Shown: positions 53,921 through 60,286 of the stretch, piece after piece | How the letters are laid out: the number at the start of each line of letters is the position of its first letter | How positions within the stretch are numbered: position 1 is the stretch's first letter | DNA from: Dyadobacter jiangsuensis | Lineage (GTDB): Bacteria > Bacteroidota > Bacteroidia > Cytophagales > Spirosomataceae | Length of the DNA stretch: 64,000 nt | Assembly: GCF_003014695.1 (NCBI RefSeq) | Contig: NZ_PYAS01000006.1 | Span: forward strand, 248,001-312,000 | Reading direction: 5' to 3' | Made by a program: the position numbers and the translations under genes | Notes under the pieces: model-generated | Told to the model about the DNA's origin: nothing | The model's input: only the letters and a program-made list of their open reading frames with translations | Databases searched by the model: none

Positions 53921-54124
53921 ATGCATTACACAGTCACAATCGATGTCCTTAACGACAATGCGCTCGACCTTTTAAGAAACCTCGAAAATCTCGGTCTGAT
54001 TCGTCTGCATGAGAGCACGCTGCAAATGAAGGATACAAGCGGCATACGTTTTCTGAAAGGCAAAATGACCAAGCAGCCCGTTGAGGAAATTGAGCGGGAA
54101 TTTAGACGATTACGCGGCAAATGA
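53921..54124 (+). CDS. Antitoxin of a PIN-type toxin-antitoxin pair
   Basis: A 67-residue small protein (MHYTVTIDVLNDNALDLLRNLENLGLIRLHE, ending EIEREFRRLRGK). The pattern, a beta strand, helix and then a hydrophilic C-terminal helix, fits the VapB-like antitoxins that pair with PIN-domain toxins in Bacteroidota. Its stop codon TGA at 54122-54124 overlaps the ATG of the toxin frame at 54121 in the sequence ATGA, so translation is coupled. A consensus promoter and a palindrome precede it. It appears intact although the toxin frame is broken. Confidence 0.8.
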   Translation: MHYTVTIDVLNDNALDLLRNLENLGLIRLHESTLQMKDTSGIRFLKGKMTKQPVEEIEREFRRLRGK

Positions 54125-54517
54125 ATCAAGCCTATCTTTGGGACACTAACATTGCCGTCTACTATCTTCAACAGCAGCTCCCTCCACTATGCAGGGAACA
54201 TAATGGATGATATCGCCGGAAATTCCCGAATCTGCTTTTCAGTAATCACCGAAATAGAACTATTCAGCTGGAAAACAGCCGCTCAATTTGACTTTGACTT
54301 AGTCAATATGTTTGTAGACATGTCGCTTCTGTTTGAGCTCAAAAAAGATATCAGAAAAAAGGCATCTGAGTTGCGCAGGCAATATGATTTGGAACTATCT
54401 GATGCGATTGTCGCAGCTACTGCCATAGTTCACGGGCTTACTCTGATTACAGATAATACAAGAGATTTCGCCGGAATCGAAAACCTAAGCTTGCTTAACC
54501 CGTTCGATCCACAATAG
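54121..54517 (+). pseudogene. Frameshifted PIN-domain toxin (VapC-like)
   Basis: A PIN-domain ribonuclease gene in two frames. From the ATG at 54121 the product reads MNQAYLWDTNIAVYYLQQQLPPL, giving the first acidic catalytic motif (DTN), and stops at TGA 54208-54210. The rest of the domain lies in the +1 frame through 54517: ISVITEIELFSW-like CFSVITEIELFSWKTA, then KASELRRQYDLELSDAIVAATAIVHGLTLITDNTRDF. Joining the two around 54185-54205 would restore a normal PIN protein of about 130 residues. The shift could be a real mutation, a sequencing error, or recoding. The start overlaps the antitoxin stop. The toxin is therefore probably inactive in this strain. Confidence 0.8.
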
Positions 54518-54526
54518 CTGCCGTCC

Positions 54527-55294
54527 CTATTTAACCAGCTTCTTCACCTCCTGCCTCAGCTCCCGCATTTCCTGGTACAGGCCTTGCAAACTTATTTCCG
54601 TCTTGTCCTCTTCCAGGTTGAAAGACAATTTACTATTCACCTGCCATATTTCGCGGATCTCATTACGATCAACACGGATCGGCACATAATCAGGGTTGAG
54701 CGATATCAGGTTCACGAAAGACGAATCCTTTTCCTTGCGGACTTTTTTGACCAGGACGCTGTCAATGGTGATAATCACATACATATCCTTATCATTCATC
54801 GCATTCCAATCGTCCACCGCCCGGGCCCAGATCCATTCACCCGACTGCAACGCCGGTGTCATACTATCGCCATCGACCTGAAATCCTCTGAATGTCGCAT
54901 TACGGTATTCCGGTAACGGTATTGTAAAGGCCGGCAATGCTTCGAACCACTGGGCATCACCGATATTATTGGGATAACCGGCCGCAGCTTTCGCGCTAAC
55001 AAGCACGATATTGTCCTTACCTGCATTATCGACCGTCACCACCTTCGGGTTGACGAATACTTTATCCGCATACAGGTATTTCTGCGGGCTGTCGCCGAAC
55101 AGCCAAAGCGGATTGATGTGGTACTTTCTGAGCAATTCCTTCACTACCTGCCCGGGTATGCGCGTACGCCCCCGCTCGATGTCTGCGGTCGTTGCGCTGA
55201 TGCCCAGTTCCTCCGCGAATGCTGCCTGGGTCAGATTAAGTTCCTCCCTAATTTGTTTGAATCGCCTGAATTCTTCATCAATAGCCATAAGCAT
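54527..55294 (-). CDS. LexA-like HTH repressor with S24 self-cleaving peptidase domain
   Basis: A 255-residue regulator with an XRE-type helix-turn-helix (about residues 8-60: IREELNLTQAAFAEELGISATTADIERGRTRIPG) and a C-terminal peptidase S24 domain. The self-cleavage site is probably Ala105-Gly106 (AAAGYP), with nucleophile Ser144 in GDSM and general base Lys183 (VLVKK). A short coiled coil ends the protein (MRELRQEVKKL). This is the architecture of LexA or phage CI-like repressors that are cleaved after RecA activation. It is divergent from a Y-family polymerase gene over a 133-bp gap with three similar dyads. A start at 55288 is also possible. Confidence 0.92.
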   Translation of the reverse strand: MLMAIDEEFRRFKQIREELNLTQAAFAEELGISATTADIERGRTRIPGQVVKELLRKYHINPLWLFGDSPQKYLYADKVFVNPKVVTVDNAGKDNIVLVSAKAAAGYPNNIGDAQWFEALPAFTIPLPEYRNATFRGFQVDGDSMTPALQSGEWIWARAVDDWNAMNDKDMYVIITIDSVLVKKVRKEKDSSFVNLISLNPDYVPIRVDRNEIREIWQVNSKLSFNLEEDKTEISLQGLYQEMRELRQEVKKLVK

Positions 55295-55348
55295 GTGTGA
55301 TGATTACCGGTTTACAATGTCTTGACTCCTCAAACATACAAATATTTT

Positions 55349-55400
55349 GGAATATTTCCTTTCATCAAATGGACATGATCCATATATTTGGAATAAATCC
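55349..55400. promoter_or_regulatory. Three GGA-N5-TCC dyads between repressor and polymerase gene
   Basis: GGAATATTTCC (55349-55359), GGACATGATCC (55371-55381) and GGAATAAATCC (55390-55400) all fit GGA-N5-TCC, with centres 22 and 19 bp apart, so on roughly the same face of the helix. They overlap TAnnTTTG boxes (55383-55390 and 55402-55409) in front of dinB and sit near a -7 box (55331-55338) of the divergent repressor gene. They are strong operator candidates. Confidence 0.65.
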
Positions 55401-55427
55401 ATAAATTTGTAAAAACTCCAACCACCA

Positions 55428-56657
55428 GTGGACCGTGCCATATTACATTTTGACCTGGATACCTTTTTCGTATCTGTAGAGCGCAAGCAGGACAGCCGGC
55501 TTGAAAACAAGCCCATACTCGTGGGCGGTACCGGCGACCGCGGAGTGGTAGCGGCTTGCAGCTACGAGACGAGGCAATTTGGCGTGCATTCCGGTATGCC
55601 CATGAAAATGGCCAGGATGCTATGCCCCGAAGCGACCGTTATCCGTGGAAACGGGGAAGCATATTCCAAACAGTCGAAGGAAGTGAGCGAGATCATCAGC
55701 CAAAATGTCCCGGTATTTGAGAAAGCAAGTATCGACGAATTTTACGCGGACCTGTCGGGAATGGACAAATACCACAGTTGCTACGGAATGGCCAGCGAGC
55801 TCCGGCAGCGGATTATCCGTGAAACCGGCCTGCCGATTTCATTTGGACTGGCTACCAATAAGCTGGTTTCGAAAGTCGCCACCGGGGAAGCCAAGCCGAA
55901 CAACCAGCTCAAAGTAGATGCCGGGCAGGAAAAGCCGTTTTTGGCCCCAATGGAAGTACAAAAAATTCCGATGGTCGGTGAAAAAATGAATCAGACACTC
56001 AACAACCTCGGCATCCGGTATGTGAAAACAATCCAGGAAATGCCGATGGAGATAATGGGGCAGGTTTTAGGAAAAAACGGGGTCTCGCTCTGGAACCGCG
56101 CTAACGGGCTCGACAACTCCCCTATTGTCCCATTCCACGAGCGTAAATCCATTTCCAGCGAGCGGACATTCGGAAAAGATACCGGTGATGTGAGGAAAAT
56201 GCGGGAAATGGTGCGCGCAATGGCCGAAACACTGGCTTACCAGTTGCGGACCGGTGAAAAGCTGACGTCCTGTGTTTCAGTCAAAATCCGCTATTCCGAT
56301 TTCAATACGTTTTCCAGGCAGTTGAAAATTGCATACACCTCCGCGGACCATGTGCTGATCCCGCATATCGAACGGCTCTTCGATCAGCTTTACAACCGGC
56401 GGATGATGGTGAGATTGGTCGGGGTGAGTTTCAGCGACCTGGTAACCGGAAATTATCAGATTAACCTCTTCGACGACACCGAAGAGCGGCTGAATCTCTA
56501 TCAGGCAATGGATTACATTAAGACCAAATACGCATACAACAAAGACGGGGACCAGATACTGACCTGGGCCAGTACAATGGGAATTTCGGATATCGGCGCC
56601 ATGGGAAACCCATTCAACGGCGAACCGCCCATTATTCCGGCGCATCGAAATGCCTGA
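55428..56657 (+). CDS. dinB: Y-family DNA polymerase (DinB/Pol IV-like)
   Basis: A 409-residue translesion polymerase. The start is GTG at 55428 (product DRAILHFDLDTFFVSVE). Palm-domain catalytic acids are Asp9 and Asp11 and the pair Asp103-Glu104 in ASIDEFYADLSG. Steric gate and finger segments include VGGTGDRGVVAACSYETRQFGVHSGMPM; the little finger follows with FHERKSISSERTFGKDTGD. It inserts nucleotides opposite damaged DNA with low fidelity. It faces the S24 repressor across the dyad array, and its 3' end meets higA. It is probably damage-inducible. Confidence 0.94.
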   Translation: MDRAILHFDLDTFFVSVERKQDSRLENKPILVGGTGDRGVVAACSYETRQFGVHSGMPMKMARMLCPEATVIRGNGEAYSKQSKEVSEIISQNVPVFEKASIDEFYADLSGMDKYHSCYGMASELRQRIIRETGLPISFGLATNKLVSKVATGEAKPNNQLKVDAGQEKPFLAPMEVQKIPMVGEKMNQTLNNLGIRYVKTIQEMPMEIMGQVLGKNGVSLWNRANGLDNSPIVPFHERKSISSERTFGKDTGDVRKMREMVRAMAETLAYQLRTGEKLTSCVSVKIRYSDFNTFSRQLKIAYTSADHVLIPHIERLFDQLYNRRMMVRLVGVSFSDLVTGNYQINLFDDTEERLNLYQAMDYIKTKYAYNKDGDQILTWASTMGISDIGAMGNPFNGEPPIIPAHRNA

Positions 56658-56669
56658 TTGTGATCAGGC
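56652..56669. terminator. Hairpin joining the ends of dinB and higA
   Basis: GCCTGAT (56652-56658) pairs perfectly with ATCAGGC (56663-56669) over four bases. It covers the stop codons of the two convergent genes. There is no good T run, so it is a weak terminator candidate. Confidence 0.35.
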
Positions 56670-56963
56670 AGCCTTTGGCTGCAACGTTTTTATTTCATTC
56701 AATTCCTCAGAAATCAAATGCTGTCCTTCTTCAATATCGTAGTCGTCCTGCAGACCGAGCCAAAACTTGGGTGTCGTGCCGAAATATTTGCTAAAACGCA
56801 GTGCGGTATCGGCAGTGACCCGTCTCCTCCCCTTGATAATCTCACTGATCCGTGTTTGGGGAATGCCCGTCTCTTTCGCCAATCGATAAGCAGAGATGCC
56901 CATTGGTTCCAGAAACTCTTCCATTAAGACTTCTCCTGGATGAATATTGTTTAGTGTTTCCAT
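56664..56963 (-). CDS. higA: HigA family antitoxin
   Basis: A 99-residue XRE-type antitoxin of the HigA/VapI group. The signature NIHPGEVLMEEFLEPMGISAYRLAKETGIPQTRISEIIKGRRRVTADTALRFSKYFGTTPKFWLGLQDDYDI is nearly complete, with the DNA-binding helix at about 25-50. It neutralises HigB and represses the operon. It follows higB by 6 bp on the minus strand, in the toxin-first order usual for HigBA. The C-terminal tail beyond ISEELNEIK is poorly conserved. Confidence 0.95.
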   Translation of the reverse strand: METLNNIHPGEVLMEEFLEPMGISAYRLAKETGIPQTRISEIIKGRRRVTADTALRFSKYFGTTPKFWLGLQDDYDIEEGQHLISEELNEIKTLQPKAA

Positions 56964-56969
56964 TGCTGT

Positions 56970-57251
56970 TTAATGATAATCGATAATTCTAACCTCAGCA
57001 GCATTACCATCCAACCATTTGAACACGATCCGCCATTGATCATTGATACGTATGCTATAAAACTCTTTCAGGCTTCCGGGGAGCTTTTCCAGCCTGTTCG
57101 ACGGAGGGATACGTAAATCCGCAAGGTTTTGTGAGTTATGGAGCATTCTTAGCTTCCGTCTCCCTACTTGCTGAATTTCCAACGGCAGCTTCCCGACCCG
57201 CTCGCCGAGCCATATTTTTTCGGTTTCCTTCGAAGAAAAGCTTGTGATCAT
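56970..57251 (-). CDS. higB: HigB/RelE family mRNA interferase toxin
   Basis: A 93-residue toxin of the RelE/HigB family that cuts mRNA on the ribosome. Landmarks: ETEKIWLGERVGKLPLEIQQVGRRKLRMLHNSQNLADLRIPPSNRLEKLPGSLKEFYSIRINDQWRIVFKW and AAEVRIIDYH, typical of HigB in length and order, with basic and aromatic residues of the active site (R-x-N-D-Q-W-R-I). The start at 57251 lies 30 nt after a perfect -7 box. It precedes higA by 6 bp. The module is oriented against both flanking polymerase genes. Confidence 0.94.
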   Translation of the reverse strand: MITSFSSKETEKIWLGERVGKLPLEIQQVGRRKLRMLHNSQNLADLRIPPSNRLEKLPGSLKEFYSIRINDQWRIVFKWLDGNAAEVRIIDYH

Positions 57252-57267
57252 ATCGGGCTGCCGGCAC

Positions 57268-57310
57268 GCGTTAGTAACGCCAAAAGTAAGTACTCAGTTC
57301 CGCTTTTCAA
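57268..57310 (-). promoter_or_regulatory. higBA promoter with adjacent palindrome
   Basis: On the minus strand TTG (CAA at 57308-57310), a 19-bp spacer and TACTTTTG (CAAAAGTA at 57281-57288) form an exact promoter. The perfect palindrome GCGTTA-g-TAACGC (57268-57280) lies right after the -7 box over the transcription start, a likely HigA operator. The -33 box is 7 bp from the start of the divergent dnaE-like gene. Confidence 0.75.
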
Positions 57311-57316
57311 ATACTC

Positions 57317-60286
57317 ATGTTACTCAACTGTCACTCTTATTTCAGCCTTCGATTCGGGACGATTCCCGAGGATGAACTTCTTGCGCTTTGCCGGGAGAAT
57401 GGATACGACTGCGTCGCGCTGACGGACATTAACAACACCTCGGGTTGCCTGAATTTCATTCGCATGGCGCCGAGGTTCGATATTAAACCCATCGTCGGGA
57501 TCGATTTCCGCAATGGCGTGACGCAGCAGTTTGTGGCATTGGCGAAGAGCAATAGCGGTTTTCAGGCTTTGAATAGCTATCTGTCTGCTCAGAAACTGAC
57601 GGACGCCCCGTTTCCCGACCGCGCACCGGAAATGGAACAGGTGGCATTTATTTATCCTTTTGAAAAACTGAACAAAGAGCGCCGTGAGCAATTCCGCCCC
57701 AACGAGTACGTCGGTATTTCCATACAGGACCTGGATAAACTGCATTACTCGCCTTTACACCGGTTCATGGACAGGCTGATCATTCAGCAGCCATTGACTT
57801 TCCGGAACAAAAAGGATTTCAATGCACATCGGCTGCTGCGGGCAATCGATGGCAATACGCTGTTGAGCAAGCTCACTACTGACGAAACTGGCAAAGAGAA
57901 CGAGCAGATCGTACAAGCGAGAGTTTTGAAATATCATTTCAAACAAAAAGACTTCCGGACTATCCTCGAAAATACCCGCAAGCTGATGGACGAATGCAAC
58001 ATTCAGTTCAGCTTCGGAAACGAGCGTGAGCACCAGAACCTGAAAGTTTTCAGCAAAAATGAGGAAGAAGATTTCAAAAGGCTGAGATCCATGAGCTACC
58101 AGGCGCTTGGTTACCGGTATGGCGATAATATTACCGATGAAATTTTCGACCGCATTGCCAAGGAACTGGACATGATCCGGCAGCAGAATTTCGTGCCGTT
58201 CTTTCTCGTCAACCACGATATTGTGCATTACGCCCGGCGGAAGGGCTATTACTATGTCGGTCGGGGCAGCGGGGCTAACAGCATCATTGCCTATTTGCTT
58301 AACATTACCAATGTCGATCCCATCGAACTGGATCTCTATTTCGAGCGCTTTATCAACCTCCACCGCAAAAACCCGCCCGATTTCGATATCGATTTCTCCT
58401 GGCGCGACCGCGAGGATGTGACGCGCTACATTTTTGATACTTACGGCAAAAATGGCCAGGCAGCACTGCTCGCGACATACAGCACTTTTCAGCACAGCTC
58501 GGCCGTTCGCGAACTGGGGAAAGTATTCGGTTTACCCGCGTATGAAATCGACGCATTAAGCAATGGTAAATATGACCCGAAAAAGCTCGATCAATTCTCG
58601 GGTCTGGTGATCAGGTATGCCGACTATTTCCAAACCAACAACCAGCCGAACCATTTGAGCATCCACGCCGGCGGCATCCTCATTTCGGAGCGCCCCATGC
58701 ATTATTTTACCGCCACCGATGTACCGCCGAAGGGCTTCCCCACCACGCAATTCGACATGGTGATTGCCGAGGATGTCGGACTGAATAAATATGATATCCT
58801 GGGCCAGCGCGGACTTGCGAAGATCAAGGAGACGCTTGAAATCATCCACTACAACCGCCCTGACGCGGCAGATTTCGACATTAACGACGTCCGGAAATTC
58901 AAAACCGATCCGAAGATCAACGATCTGATCAGGCAGGCGCAGTGTATCGGCTGTTTTTATGTGGAATCACCGGCCATGCGGATGCTGCTGAAAAAGCTGG
59001 AAGTCGACAACTACCTTGGACTCGTGGCGGCTAGCTCTATTATCCGGCCCGGCGTAGCAAAAAGCGGCATGATGCGTGAGTACATCCTGCGCCACCGCCA
59101 TCCGGAAAAGCGGAACGAAGCCCACCCGCGCCTGCTCGAACTGATGGAAGAAACATACGGCATTATGGTGTACCAGGAAGACGTGATCAAGGTCGCGCAC
59201 TACTTTGCCGGGCTGACCCTCGGCGAGGCGGATGTGATCCGACGCGGCATGAGCGGCAAGTTTCGCGGGCGCGAGGAGTTTGAGCGCGTTAAAAAGAAAT
59301 ATTTCAAAAACTGCCGGAGCAAAGGCTACGACGAAGAAATGACCATGGAGATCTGGAACCAGATCGCCAGTTTCGCCGGATTTGCCTTTGCCAAAGGGCA
59401 TTCCGCGTCCTATGCCGTCGAAAGCTACCAGACATTATTCCTGAAAGCCTATTTCCCGTTGGAATTTATGGTAGCCGTCCTCAACAATGGCGGCGGCTTT
59501 TACGCGCCCGAGCTGTACATACACGAGGCTCGCATGCTGGGGGCGCTCGTACATGCGCCATGCGTGAACCACAGCGAAGCCCAGGCGACCATCGAAGGAC
59601 ATGATATTTACCTGGGCATGCAGTTCCTGAATGCATTGGAAGAAAAAACAATCGAAAGGATTCTCAACGCGCGCAAGCAGGACGGCCCGTTCACTTCACT
59701 CAACGATTTCCTCGACCGCGTGCCTATTTCAATCGAACAGTTGACGATCCTGATCCGGATCGACGCCTTCCGGTTTACTGGTATTGGTAAGAAAACGCTG
59801 CTTTGGAAGGCGCACTTCCGGCTGAGTACAACACCCGTGAAAGTGCCTCAAAAGCAACTATTTCATACTGAAATCAGGGACTTTAACTTACCGGAGTTTC
59901 ATTCTTCCATTCTCGATGATGCCTATGACCAGATCGAATTGCTCGGCTTTCCTCTTTGCAGCCCTTTCAATTTGCTGAAAAACCCGTTGCCCAAGAGTGT
60001 TATGTCGCGCGATCTGCACAATTATATCAACCAGGAAGTGGTACAATACGGCTACCTGGTAGCTCTCAAAAACACCCGTACGAACCGGGGCGAATCAATG
60101 CAGTTCGGCACATTCCTGGATTACGAGGGGCAATTTATCGATACCGTCCATTTCCCTACGGCCACGGCCAAAGTAAATGGATCAGTCAAAGGCGTTTACA
60201 AGATCCGCGGTGTTGTGACTGAAGAATTCGGCTTCCTCACCGTGGAAGTGGCGGAAATTACACGGATGGAATCGGCGGCGCGCTGA
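57317..60286 (+). CDS. DnaE-type DNA polymerase III alpha subunit (error-prone-like, short)
   Basis: A 989-residue C-family polymerase. The N-terminal PHP domain (about 1-220) begins LNCHSYFSLRFGT and has ALTDINNTSG near residue 36; canonical sites have HxHS and TDH here, so one histidine is replaced by Asn and another by Ile. The palm motif PDFDIDF (residues 354-360) supplies two catalytic aspartates. Fingers, beta-binding and OB parts follow, and YGIMVYQEDVIKVAHYFAGLTLGEADVIRRGMSGK is classic. It is shorter than a replicative DnaE and lies in the region of a DinB gene and an S24 repressor, which fits a mutagenesis polymerase of the DnaE2 sort. No clear promoter is seen before it. Confidence 0.92.
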   Translation: MLLNCHSYFSLRFGTIPEDELLALCRENGYDCVALTDINNTSGCLNFIRMAPRFDIKPIVGIDFRNGVTQQFVALAKSNSGFQALNSYLSAQKLTDAPFPDRAPEMEQVAFIYPFEKLNKERREQFRPNEYVGISIQDLDKLHYSPLHRFMDRLIIQQPLTFRNKKDFNAHRLLRAIDGNTLLSKLTTDETGKENEQIVQARVLKYHFKQKDFRTILENTRKLMDECNIQFSFGNEREHQNLKVFSKNEEEDFKRLRSMSYQALGYRYGDNITDEIFDRIAKELDMIRQQNFVPFFLVNHDIVHYARRKGYYYVGRGSGANSIIAYLLNITNVDPIELDLYFERFINLHRKNPPDFDIDFSWRDREDVTRYIFDTYGKNGQAALLATYSTFQHSSAVRELGKVFGLPAYEIDALSNGKYDPKKLDQFSGLVIRYADYFQTNNQPNHLSIHAGGILISERPMHYFTATDVPPKGFPTTQFDMVIAEDVGLNKYDILGQRGLAKIKETLEIIHYNRPDAADFDINDVRKFKTDPKINDLIRQAQCIGCFYVESPAMRMLLKKLEVDNYLGLVAASSIIRPGVAKSGMMREYILRHRHPEKRNEAHPRLLELMEETYGIMVYQEDVIKVAHYFAGLTLGEADVIRRGMSGKFRGREEFERVKKKYFKNCRSKGYDEEMTMEIWNQIASFAGFAFAKGHSASYAVESYQTLFLKAYFPLEFMVAVLNNGGGFYAPELYIHEARMLGALVHAPCVNHSEAQATIEGHDIYLGMQFLNALEEKTIERILNARKQDGPFTSLNDFLDRVPISIEQLTILIRIDAFRFTGIGKKTLLWKAHFRLSTTPVKVPQKQLFHTEIRDFNLPEFHSSILDDAYDQIELLGFPLCSPFNLLKNPLPKSVMSRDLHNYINQEVVQYGYLVALKNTRTNRGESMQFGTFLDYEGQFIDTVHFPTATAKVNGSVKGVYKIRGVVTEEFGFLTVEVAEITRMESAAR

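Follow-up and report, generated by a model that had tools for sequence, protein, structure and literature searches.

A 64,000-nucleotide stretch of Dyadobacter jiangsuensis DNA (the window) carries, between positions 54527 and 60286, a cassette in which an S24 repressor gene is divergent from dinB, the gene of a Y-family polymerase, with an array of operators between them and the gene of a short DnaE-type polymerase downstream. We read the cassette as a DNA-damage-inducible mutagenesis unit made of repressor, operators, Y-family polymerase (PolY) and short DnaE2-type polymerase, with a probability of about 0.88. Its anatomy, conserved residues, operators, gene order and repressor clade were established directly. 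From these parts we infer repression, cleavage, induction, complex formation and mutagenesis by the cassette: upon DNA damage, RecA filaments would stimulate cutting of the repressor at Ala105-Gly106 through its Ser144-Lys183 dyad, both polymerases would then be produced, and the Y-family polymerase, together with RecA and the short DnaE2-type polymerase, would carry out error-prone lesion bypass.

The core of the cassette is previously described. An earlier note on this DNA had proposed a Bacteroidota-specific organisation of an inducible error-prone unit; the reading as a Bacteroidota mutagenesis unit is supported, but the organisation is not new, as the relevant passages of three papers already contain it (PMC8565304, PMC6511836, PMC12926913). 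The passages concerned in Sanchez-Osuna et al. (2021, PMC8565304) describe a non-canonical LexA of Bacteroidetes that recognises GGA-N5-TCC, and dinB often in operon with dnaE (COG0587); the S. agarivorans repressor binds this motif, SOS genes are induced by mitomycin C and the protein is a global SOS repressor. For the polymerases, the corresponding parts of Timinskas and Venclovas (2019, PMC6511836) and of a 2026 paper (PMC12926913) predict for Bacteroidetes a system in which two active polymerases, one of the Y family and one DnaE2, act with RecA; the latter paper reports DnaE2B in genomes without ImuA or ImuB, and short-core DnaE2s are, in the part concerned of PMC3919608, mainly those of Bacteroidetes. 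Our additions are modest: the assignment of the Dyadobacter repressor, the exchange of repressors at a conserved locus, a 19-bp operator signature with a small gene behind it, and a toxin-antitoxin slot. A literature search found no paper on the SOS response in Dyadobacter.

Open reading frames and family models recovered every part that the earlier note had named, repressor, DinB and DnaE, in the same positions, including the 989-residue DnaE-type polymerase downstream of dinB:

54527..55294, minus strand: S24 repressor, non-canonical LexA (lexA-like), 255 residues; Pfam HTH_3 and Peptidase_S24 above cut-off, conserved residues, GGA-type clade
55331..55338, minus strand: TAnnTTTG (TATGTTTG), candidate -7 element for the repressor gene
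55349..55359, no strand: operator 1, GGA-N5-TCC, directly preceding the -7-like element of the repressor gene
55371..55381, no strand: operator 2, GGA-N5-TCC, opening the tandem pair that precedes dinB
55383..55390, plus strand: TAnnTTTG (TATATTTG), candidate -7 element lying between operators 2 and 3
55390..55400, no strand: operator 3, GGA-N5-TCC, 19 bp from operator 2
55402..55409, plus strand: TAnnTTTG (TAAATTTG), possible -7 element just past operator 3
55428..56657, plus strand: DinB/PolY, Y-family, GTG start, 409 residues; catalytic Asp9/Asp11 and Asp103/Glu104, from family models and alignment
57317..60286, plus strand: short DnaE (DnaE2-type), 989 residues; Asp355/357/359 and Asp493 intact, PHP histidine replaced by Asn4

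The host genome comprises 8.27 Mb in 47 contigs (G000), with the window on contig C6. The nearest named relatives at the locus are Dyadobacter, with DnaE identities of 69-87% among the best 80 of 587 confirmed relatives, and these best 80 are the named Bacteroidota loci referred to below.

The repressor and its operators

The repressor combines a CI-like helix-turn-helix (PF01381) with an S24 peptidase domain, both above the Pfam cut-off. The self-cleavage residues proposed earlier, Ala105-Gly106, Ser144 and Lys183, are present and conserved among 95 aligned S24 repressors, Gly106, Ser144 and Lys183 in all 95 and Ala105 in 87. Outside Dyadobacter, the closest repressors are Flavobacteriaceae-type proteins of 15 genomes (49-56% identity), reached via loci with GGA operators at dinB, and every one of these genomes has at least two GGA-N5-TCC sites upstream of its own repressor gene. 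Upstream of the repressor gene, no such site was found in a Saprospiraceae relative (44% identity) or in any of five remote paralogues. One of the 15 genomes is a Salegentibacter (G128, via L177), of the same genus as S. agarivorans.

In a repressor tree of 83 rows, Dyadobacter falls within the GGA-type set (29 rows, including Flavobacteriaceae and Saprospiraceae) with a Shimodaira-Hasegawa-like approximate likelihood ratio (SH-aLRT) of 95, while the S24 proteins encoded beside dinB in other genera of the host's bacterial family, 25-38% identical to the Dyadobacter repressor, stand elsewhere. This is a quick tree with long branches flagged, and the characterised S. agarivorans protein is not among its rows. 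In identity, upstream sites and tree position the Dyadobacter repressor goes with the published GGA-N5-TCC non-canonical LexA group. The two are alike in their S24 and PF01381 domains, Ala-Gly site, Ser-Lys dyad, operators and, as predicted for Dyadobacter, control of themselves and dinB. The published network includes umuD and SRAP (PMC8565304, in the passages cited above), and in other Dyadobacter these genes carry the tandem operator pair. Dyadobacter differs in having three operators with a fixed 19-bp pair and, in the window's genome, an apparently small regulon. In the same passages of that paper the group belongs primarily to Flavobacteriaceae, and homologues from Cytophagaceae were unassignable, whereas the Dyadobacter repressor groups with it here; an SOS system known mainly from Flavobacteriaceae would thereby extend to Dyadobacter. 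Because the S24 genes of other genera branch elsewhere, mostly without GGA operators, the same polymerase pair is found next to two or more repressor subfamilies whose operators differ.

The three dyads noted earlier between the repressor gene and dinB are GGA-N5-TCC sites beginning at 55349, 55371 and 55390. When the 133-bp intergenic region was shuffled 20,000 times with its dinucleotides preserved, three sites arose 0 times and two sites 7 times. All three operators are kept in nine of nine Dyadobacter relatives, with GGA and TCC fixed, N5 variable and spacings of 22-23 and 19 bp, and likewise in five of five named Dyadobacter loci (L112 being apparently the same genome as L052). TAnnTTTG is the -7 consensus of Bacteroidota, and elements of this form adjoin the operators on both strands. 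Among non-Dyadobacter loci of the family with a DinB match (n=41), only L054 has GGA-N5-TCC before dinB. Of the 23 named non-Dyadobacter loci in which two sites precede dinB (L135, truncated by a contig end, is excluded), 21 show the same 19-bp pitch.

The motif CTAA-N5-TTAG was considered as a dinB operator and rejected, being absent from Dyadobacter and present at 2 of 50 family loci with a DinB match (L058 and L060) and 7 of 76 named loci. In other genera, at L071, L100, L103 and L096, different dyads take the place of GGA-N5-TCC before dinB, for example TGTAA-type and TTTGACAC-type repeats.

Two polymerases and the gap between them

The Y-family polymerase of the cassette has an intact active site and is predicted to be active. 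Asp9 and Asp11 are found in 123 of 127 DinB relatives (the other four have gaps), and Asp103 and Glu104 in all 127. A clamp motif, QINLF, lies at residues 344-348, with Gln344 and Phe348 kept in 123/123, and is followed at 357-381 by a RecA-NT-like tail, recognised by eye, in which Leu357, Asp362 and Lys/Arg365 are each kept in 123/123; a minority of rows, the window included, have a five-residue insertion in this tail. The DnaE scores above the TIGR00594 cut-off. Its Asp355, Asp357, Asp359 and Asp493 are invariant in 141 relatives, while the first PHP metal ligand, formerly histidine, is Asn4 in 137 of them, so that the polymerase site is intact and the PHP site disrupted. The putative label of DnaE2B for the 989-residue protein rests on the published papers.

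These features match the DnaE2B-PolY-RecA (PolY2-DnaE2) mutasome as presented in the relevant parts of the papers cited above: an intact Y-family polymerase with a RecA-NT motif, and a short-core DnaE2-type polymerase with a disrupted PHP site. The published example there is Cellulophaga algicola, whose genus is also among our loci (L165). Dyadobacter differs from it in the HigBA genes between the polymerases and in the five-residue insertion of the tail.

A canonical ImuA-ImuB-DnaE2 mutasome shares with the cassette a repressor-controlled Y-family protein and a DnaE2-type polymerase, and membership in that system would account for a DnaE2-type gene beside a Y-family gene with an S24 repressor. 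We rejected this reading, which is highly improbable, on the intact catalytic residues of the Y-family protein; the cassette also lacks ImuA and the ImuB C-terminal region (ImuB-C). The earlier statement that no imuA or imuB is in sight holds within the window but fails genome-wide: a separate locus on contig C8 (L040:2418-8171) has, divergent from dinD, a Y-family gene that looks inactive (imuB) and after it dnaE2 (NF004225, 1386 bits against a cut-off of 939); imuA was not searched for.

Conservation of the gene order reaches beyond this strain, a point on which the earlier note had staked its proposal. Among 60 loci of the family, 48 have dinB no more than 900 bp upstream of dnaE, and 39 have an S24 repressor gene adjoining dinB in divergent orientation. 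Among the 80 named loci these counts are 49 and 17, and 22 carry dinB downstream of dnaE instead. The DnaE itself is present in 59 of 121 genomes of the family (E <=1e-150) and in 55 of 395 genomes of a phylum sample (E <=1e-200), and some genomes of the family have two copies. A DnaE tree of 56 rows separates Dyadobacter from 17 other rows of its family and nests it among Flavobacteriaceae, Saprospiraceae and eight further members of the family; a single clade for the family is rejected (approximately unbiased test, p-AU 3.9e-7). Either a transfer between families or an old paralogy would account for this placing.

The gap between the polymerase genes holds a pair of genes absent from the earlier reading:

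56664..56963, minus strand: HigA antitoxin, between dinB and dnaE; TIGR02607 above cut-off
56970..57251, minus strand: HigB toxin; PF05015 above cut-off
57268..57280, no strand: inverted repeat GCGTTAGTAACGC, possibly a HigA operator

Across 14 Dyadobacter rows, which represent 13 genomes should L052 and L112 be the same, the gap contains HigA and HigB in six, HigA alone in two, a PemK/MazF-like toxin with a small partner in one (Dyadobacter frigoris, L110) and no gene in five, where it measures 24-62 bp. The dinB-dnaE gap has received different toxin-antitoxin modules. In the passages concerned of PMC13384398, the LexA-controlled higBA of Caulobacter is likewise physically tied to an SOS promoter, whereas in Dyadobacter the HigBA genes run on the opposite strand and their promoter region lacks a GGA operator. 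One GGA-N5-TCC site falls inside higB in the window, and one within the HigBA stretch of L109.

The HigBA insertion, found in the window as well as 6 of the 14 Dyadobacter rows, is what would be expected if the two polymerases were not one machine, with DinB serving by itself as Pol IV while the short DnaE works separately and perhaps constitutively. The arrangement in Flavobacteriaceae, often with dnaE ahead of dinB or with other genes in between, points the same way. The conserved order in the family, the short gene-free gaps of Dyadobacter and the retention of both the RecA-NT-like tail and the clamp motif across the DinB family argue for joint action instead, and we regard separate polymerases as rather unlikely.

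Toxin-antitoxin genes are not confined to the gap: just past the repressor, at 53921-54517, stand a small antitoxin-like open reading frame and a PIN-domain (VapC-like) one, and genes of VapBC type come after the repressor in the window and 2 of the 14 Dyadobacter rows. In other Bacteroidota, the dinB-dnaE gap of L114, L149, L167 and L185 contains a SRAP-like gene, judged by sequence only.

Tandem operators as a marker of the predicted regulon

Single GGA-N5-TCC sites proved uninformative as a genome-wide marker (2345 on the forward strand against 1714 in a reversed control), and the tandem pair was therefore taken instead. Pairs with the 19-bp pitch occur in 41 of 41 Dyadobacter genomes, 119 in total against 7 in the reversed control, which makes two sites 19 bp apart a precise promoter signature for reading the regulon from sequence. 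Their surroundings were inspected at 76 of the 119 places: the cassette accounts for 24, umuD for 7 (five of these divergent from SRAP), a GDSL-hydrolase gene for 5 and a small gene for 16, and the rest are 14 further AT-rich places and 10 GC-rich ones. UmuD, SRAP and the GDSL-hydrolase were identified by family models. The 14 other AT-rich pairs stand at genes that could not be tied to SOS, or beside brxC without a small open reading frame, and the 10 GC-rich pairs are probably due to chance. The window's genome has four tandem pairs, at the cassette, a hydrolase gene, a brxC-linked small-gene place and a GC-rich intragenic place.

A symmetric pattern, TGGAWWWWWTCCA, was discarded (11 sites versus 3; apart from the cassette and the SGNH and brxC-linked pairs, none at SOS genes). 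The GDSL-hydrolase gene behind the pair in the window's genome (L221:1674-2726, contig C2) has a lipoprotein-like start.

With so few pairs in its genome, one of them the cassette and one GC-rich and intragenic, the repressor could be a local, phage-derived or selfish regulator of its own cassette and not a true SOS regulator; its CI-like helix-turn-helix and the lack of a site before recA or imuB/dinD would fit that description. It is difficult to reconcile with the presence of the pair in each of the 41 Dyadobacter genomes far above the reversed control, with the umuD and SRAP sites, which are SOS genes, or with the global role of the GGA-type regulator in S. agarivorans (PMC8565304, in the part cited). 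We consider a purely local repressor unlikely.

The inducible mutagenesis unit remains our preferred reading, and several observations weigh against it. No GGA-N5-TCC site was found at recA or in the imuB/dinD intergenic region of the window's genome, so the regulon here looks small and not like a full SOS network. Strains with HigBA show no convincing operator of dnaE's own, and since HigBA lies reversed between dinB and dnaE, the co-induction expected of a simple operon may not extend to dnaE. The DnaE falls under the curated NCBIfam cut-offs, with 457 of 939 bits for the error-prone model and 501 of 1002 for DnaE1. Finally, DnaE2B-PolY-RecA is reported, in the passages cited of PMC12926913, from genomes without ImuA or ImuB, yet the window's genome has imuB-dnaE2.

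A small protein family behind the tandem pair

The signature also leads to a small protein, a candidate damage effector open to testing, for which three family libraries gave no significant match. The small gene encodes 48-65 residues, starts 28-36 nt past the tandem pair in 13 loci and adjoins the bacilliredoxin gene brxC at 12 of the 16 sites. Thirteen aligned members (alignment A2; for example L284:1565-1762, unannotated) share 11 invariant residues, with a consensus around SEEMVWxWYYDExGxKHLKELL. Mean nonsynonymous divergence (pN) is 0.28 against a mean synonymous divergence (pS) of 0.83 over 78 pairs, and the median omega over the 15 computable pairs is 0.16; the gene is therefore protein-coding and under purifying selection.

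Searches of family libraries gave nothing significant for the small protein, the best values being 0.0071 in Pfam (W2, in 3 of 13 members), 0.03 in NCBIfam and 0.077 in PHROGs, and no match on plasmids was found at E up to 1. The predicted fold combines three strands with one helix in a model of modest confidence (predicted local distance difference test, pLDDT, 70.7; predicted template modelling score, pTM, 0.52), and a search of the PDB with this model returned nothing under E 0.001 (best 0.06). No paper matched all terms of a literature search on small division inhibitors of the Bacteroidetes SOS response, and the main text of PMC8565304 (supplements not searched) does not contain 'hypothetical', 'sulA' or 'lipase'.

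By analogy with SulA, YneA and SidA, a division or checkpoint effector would be a fair guess for the small protein. More broadly, and with considerable doubt, the tandem pair might drive an undescribed family of 48-65 residues that serves as a damage effector of Dyadobacter (e.g. a division inhibitor or a polymerase or protease adaptor), with the dinB-dnaE gap acting as a preferred toxin-antitoxin landing site tied to the damage switch.

A second unannotated gene, of about 123-135 residues, follows the small gene in L244, L286 and L292; for the L286 copy there is no Pfam match. The small-gene copy of the window's own genome looks broken, and its operators remain.

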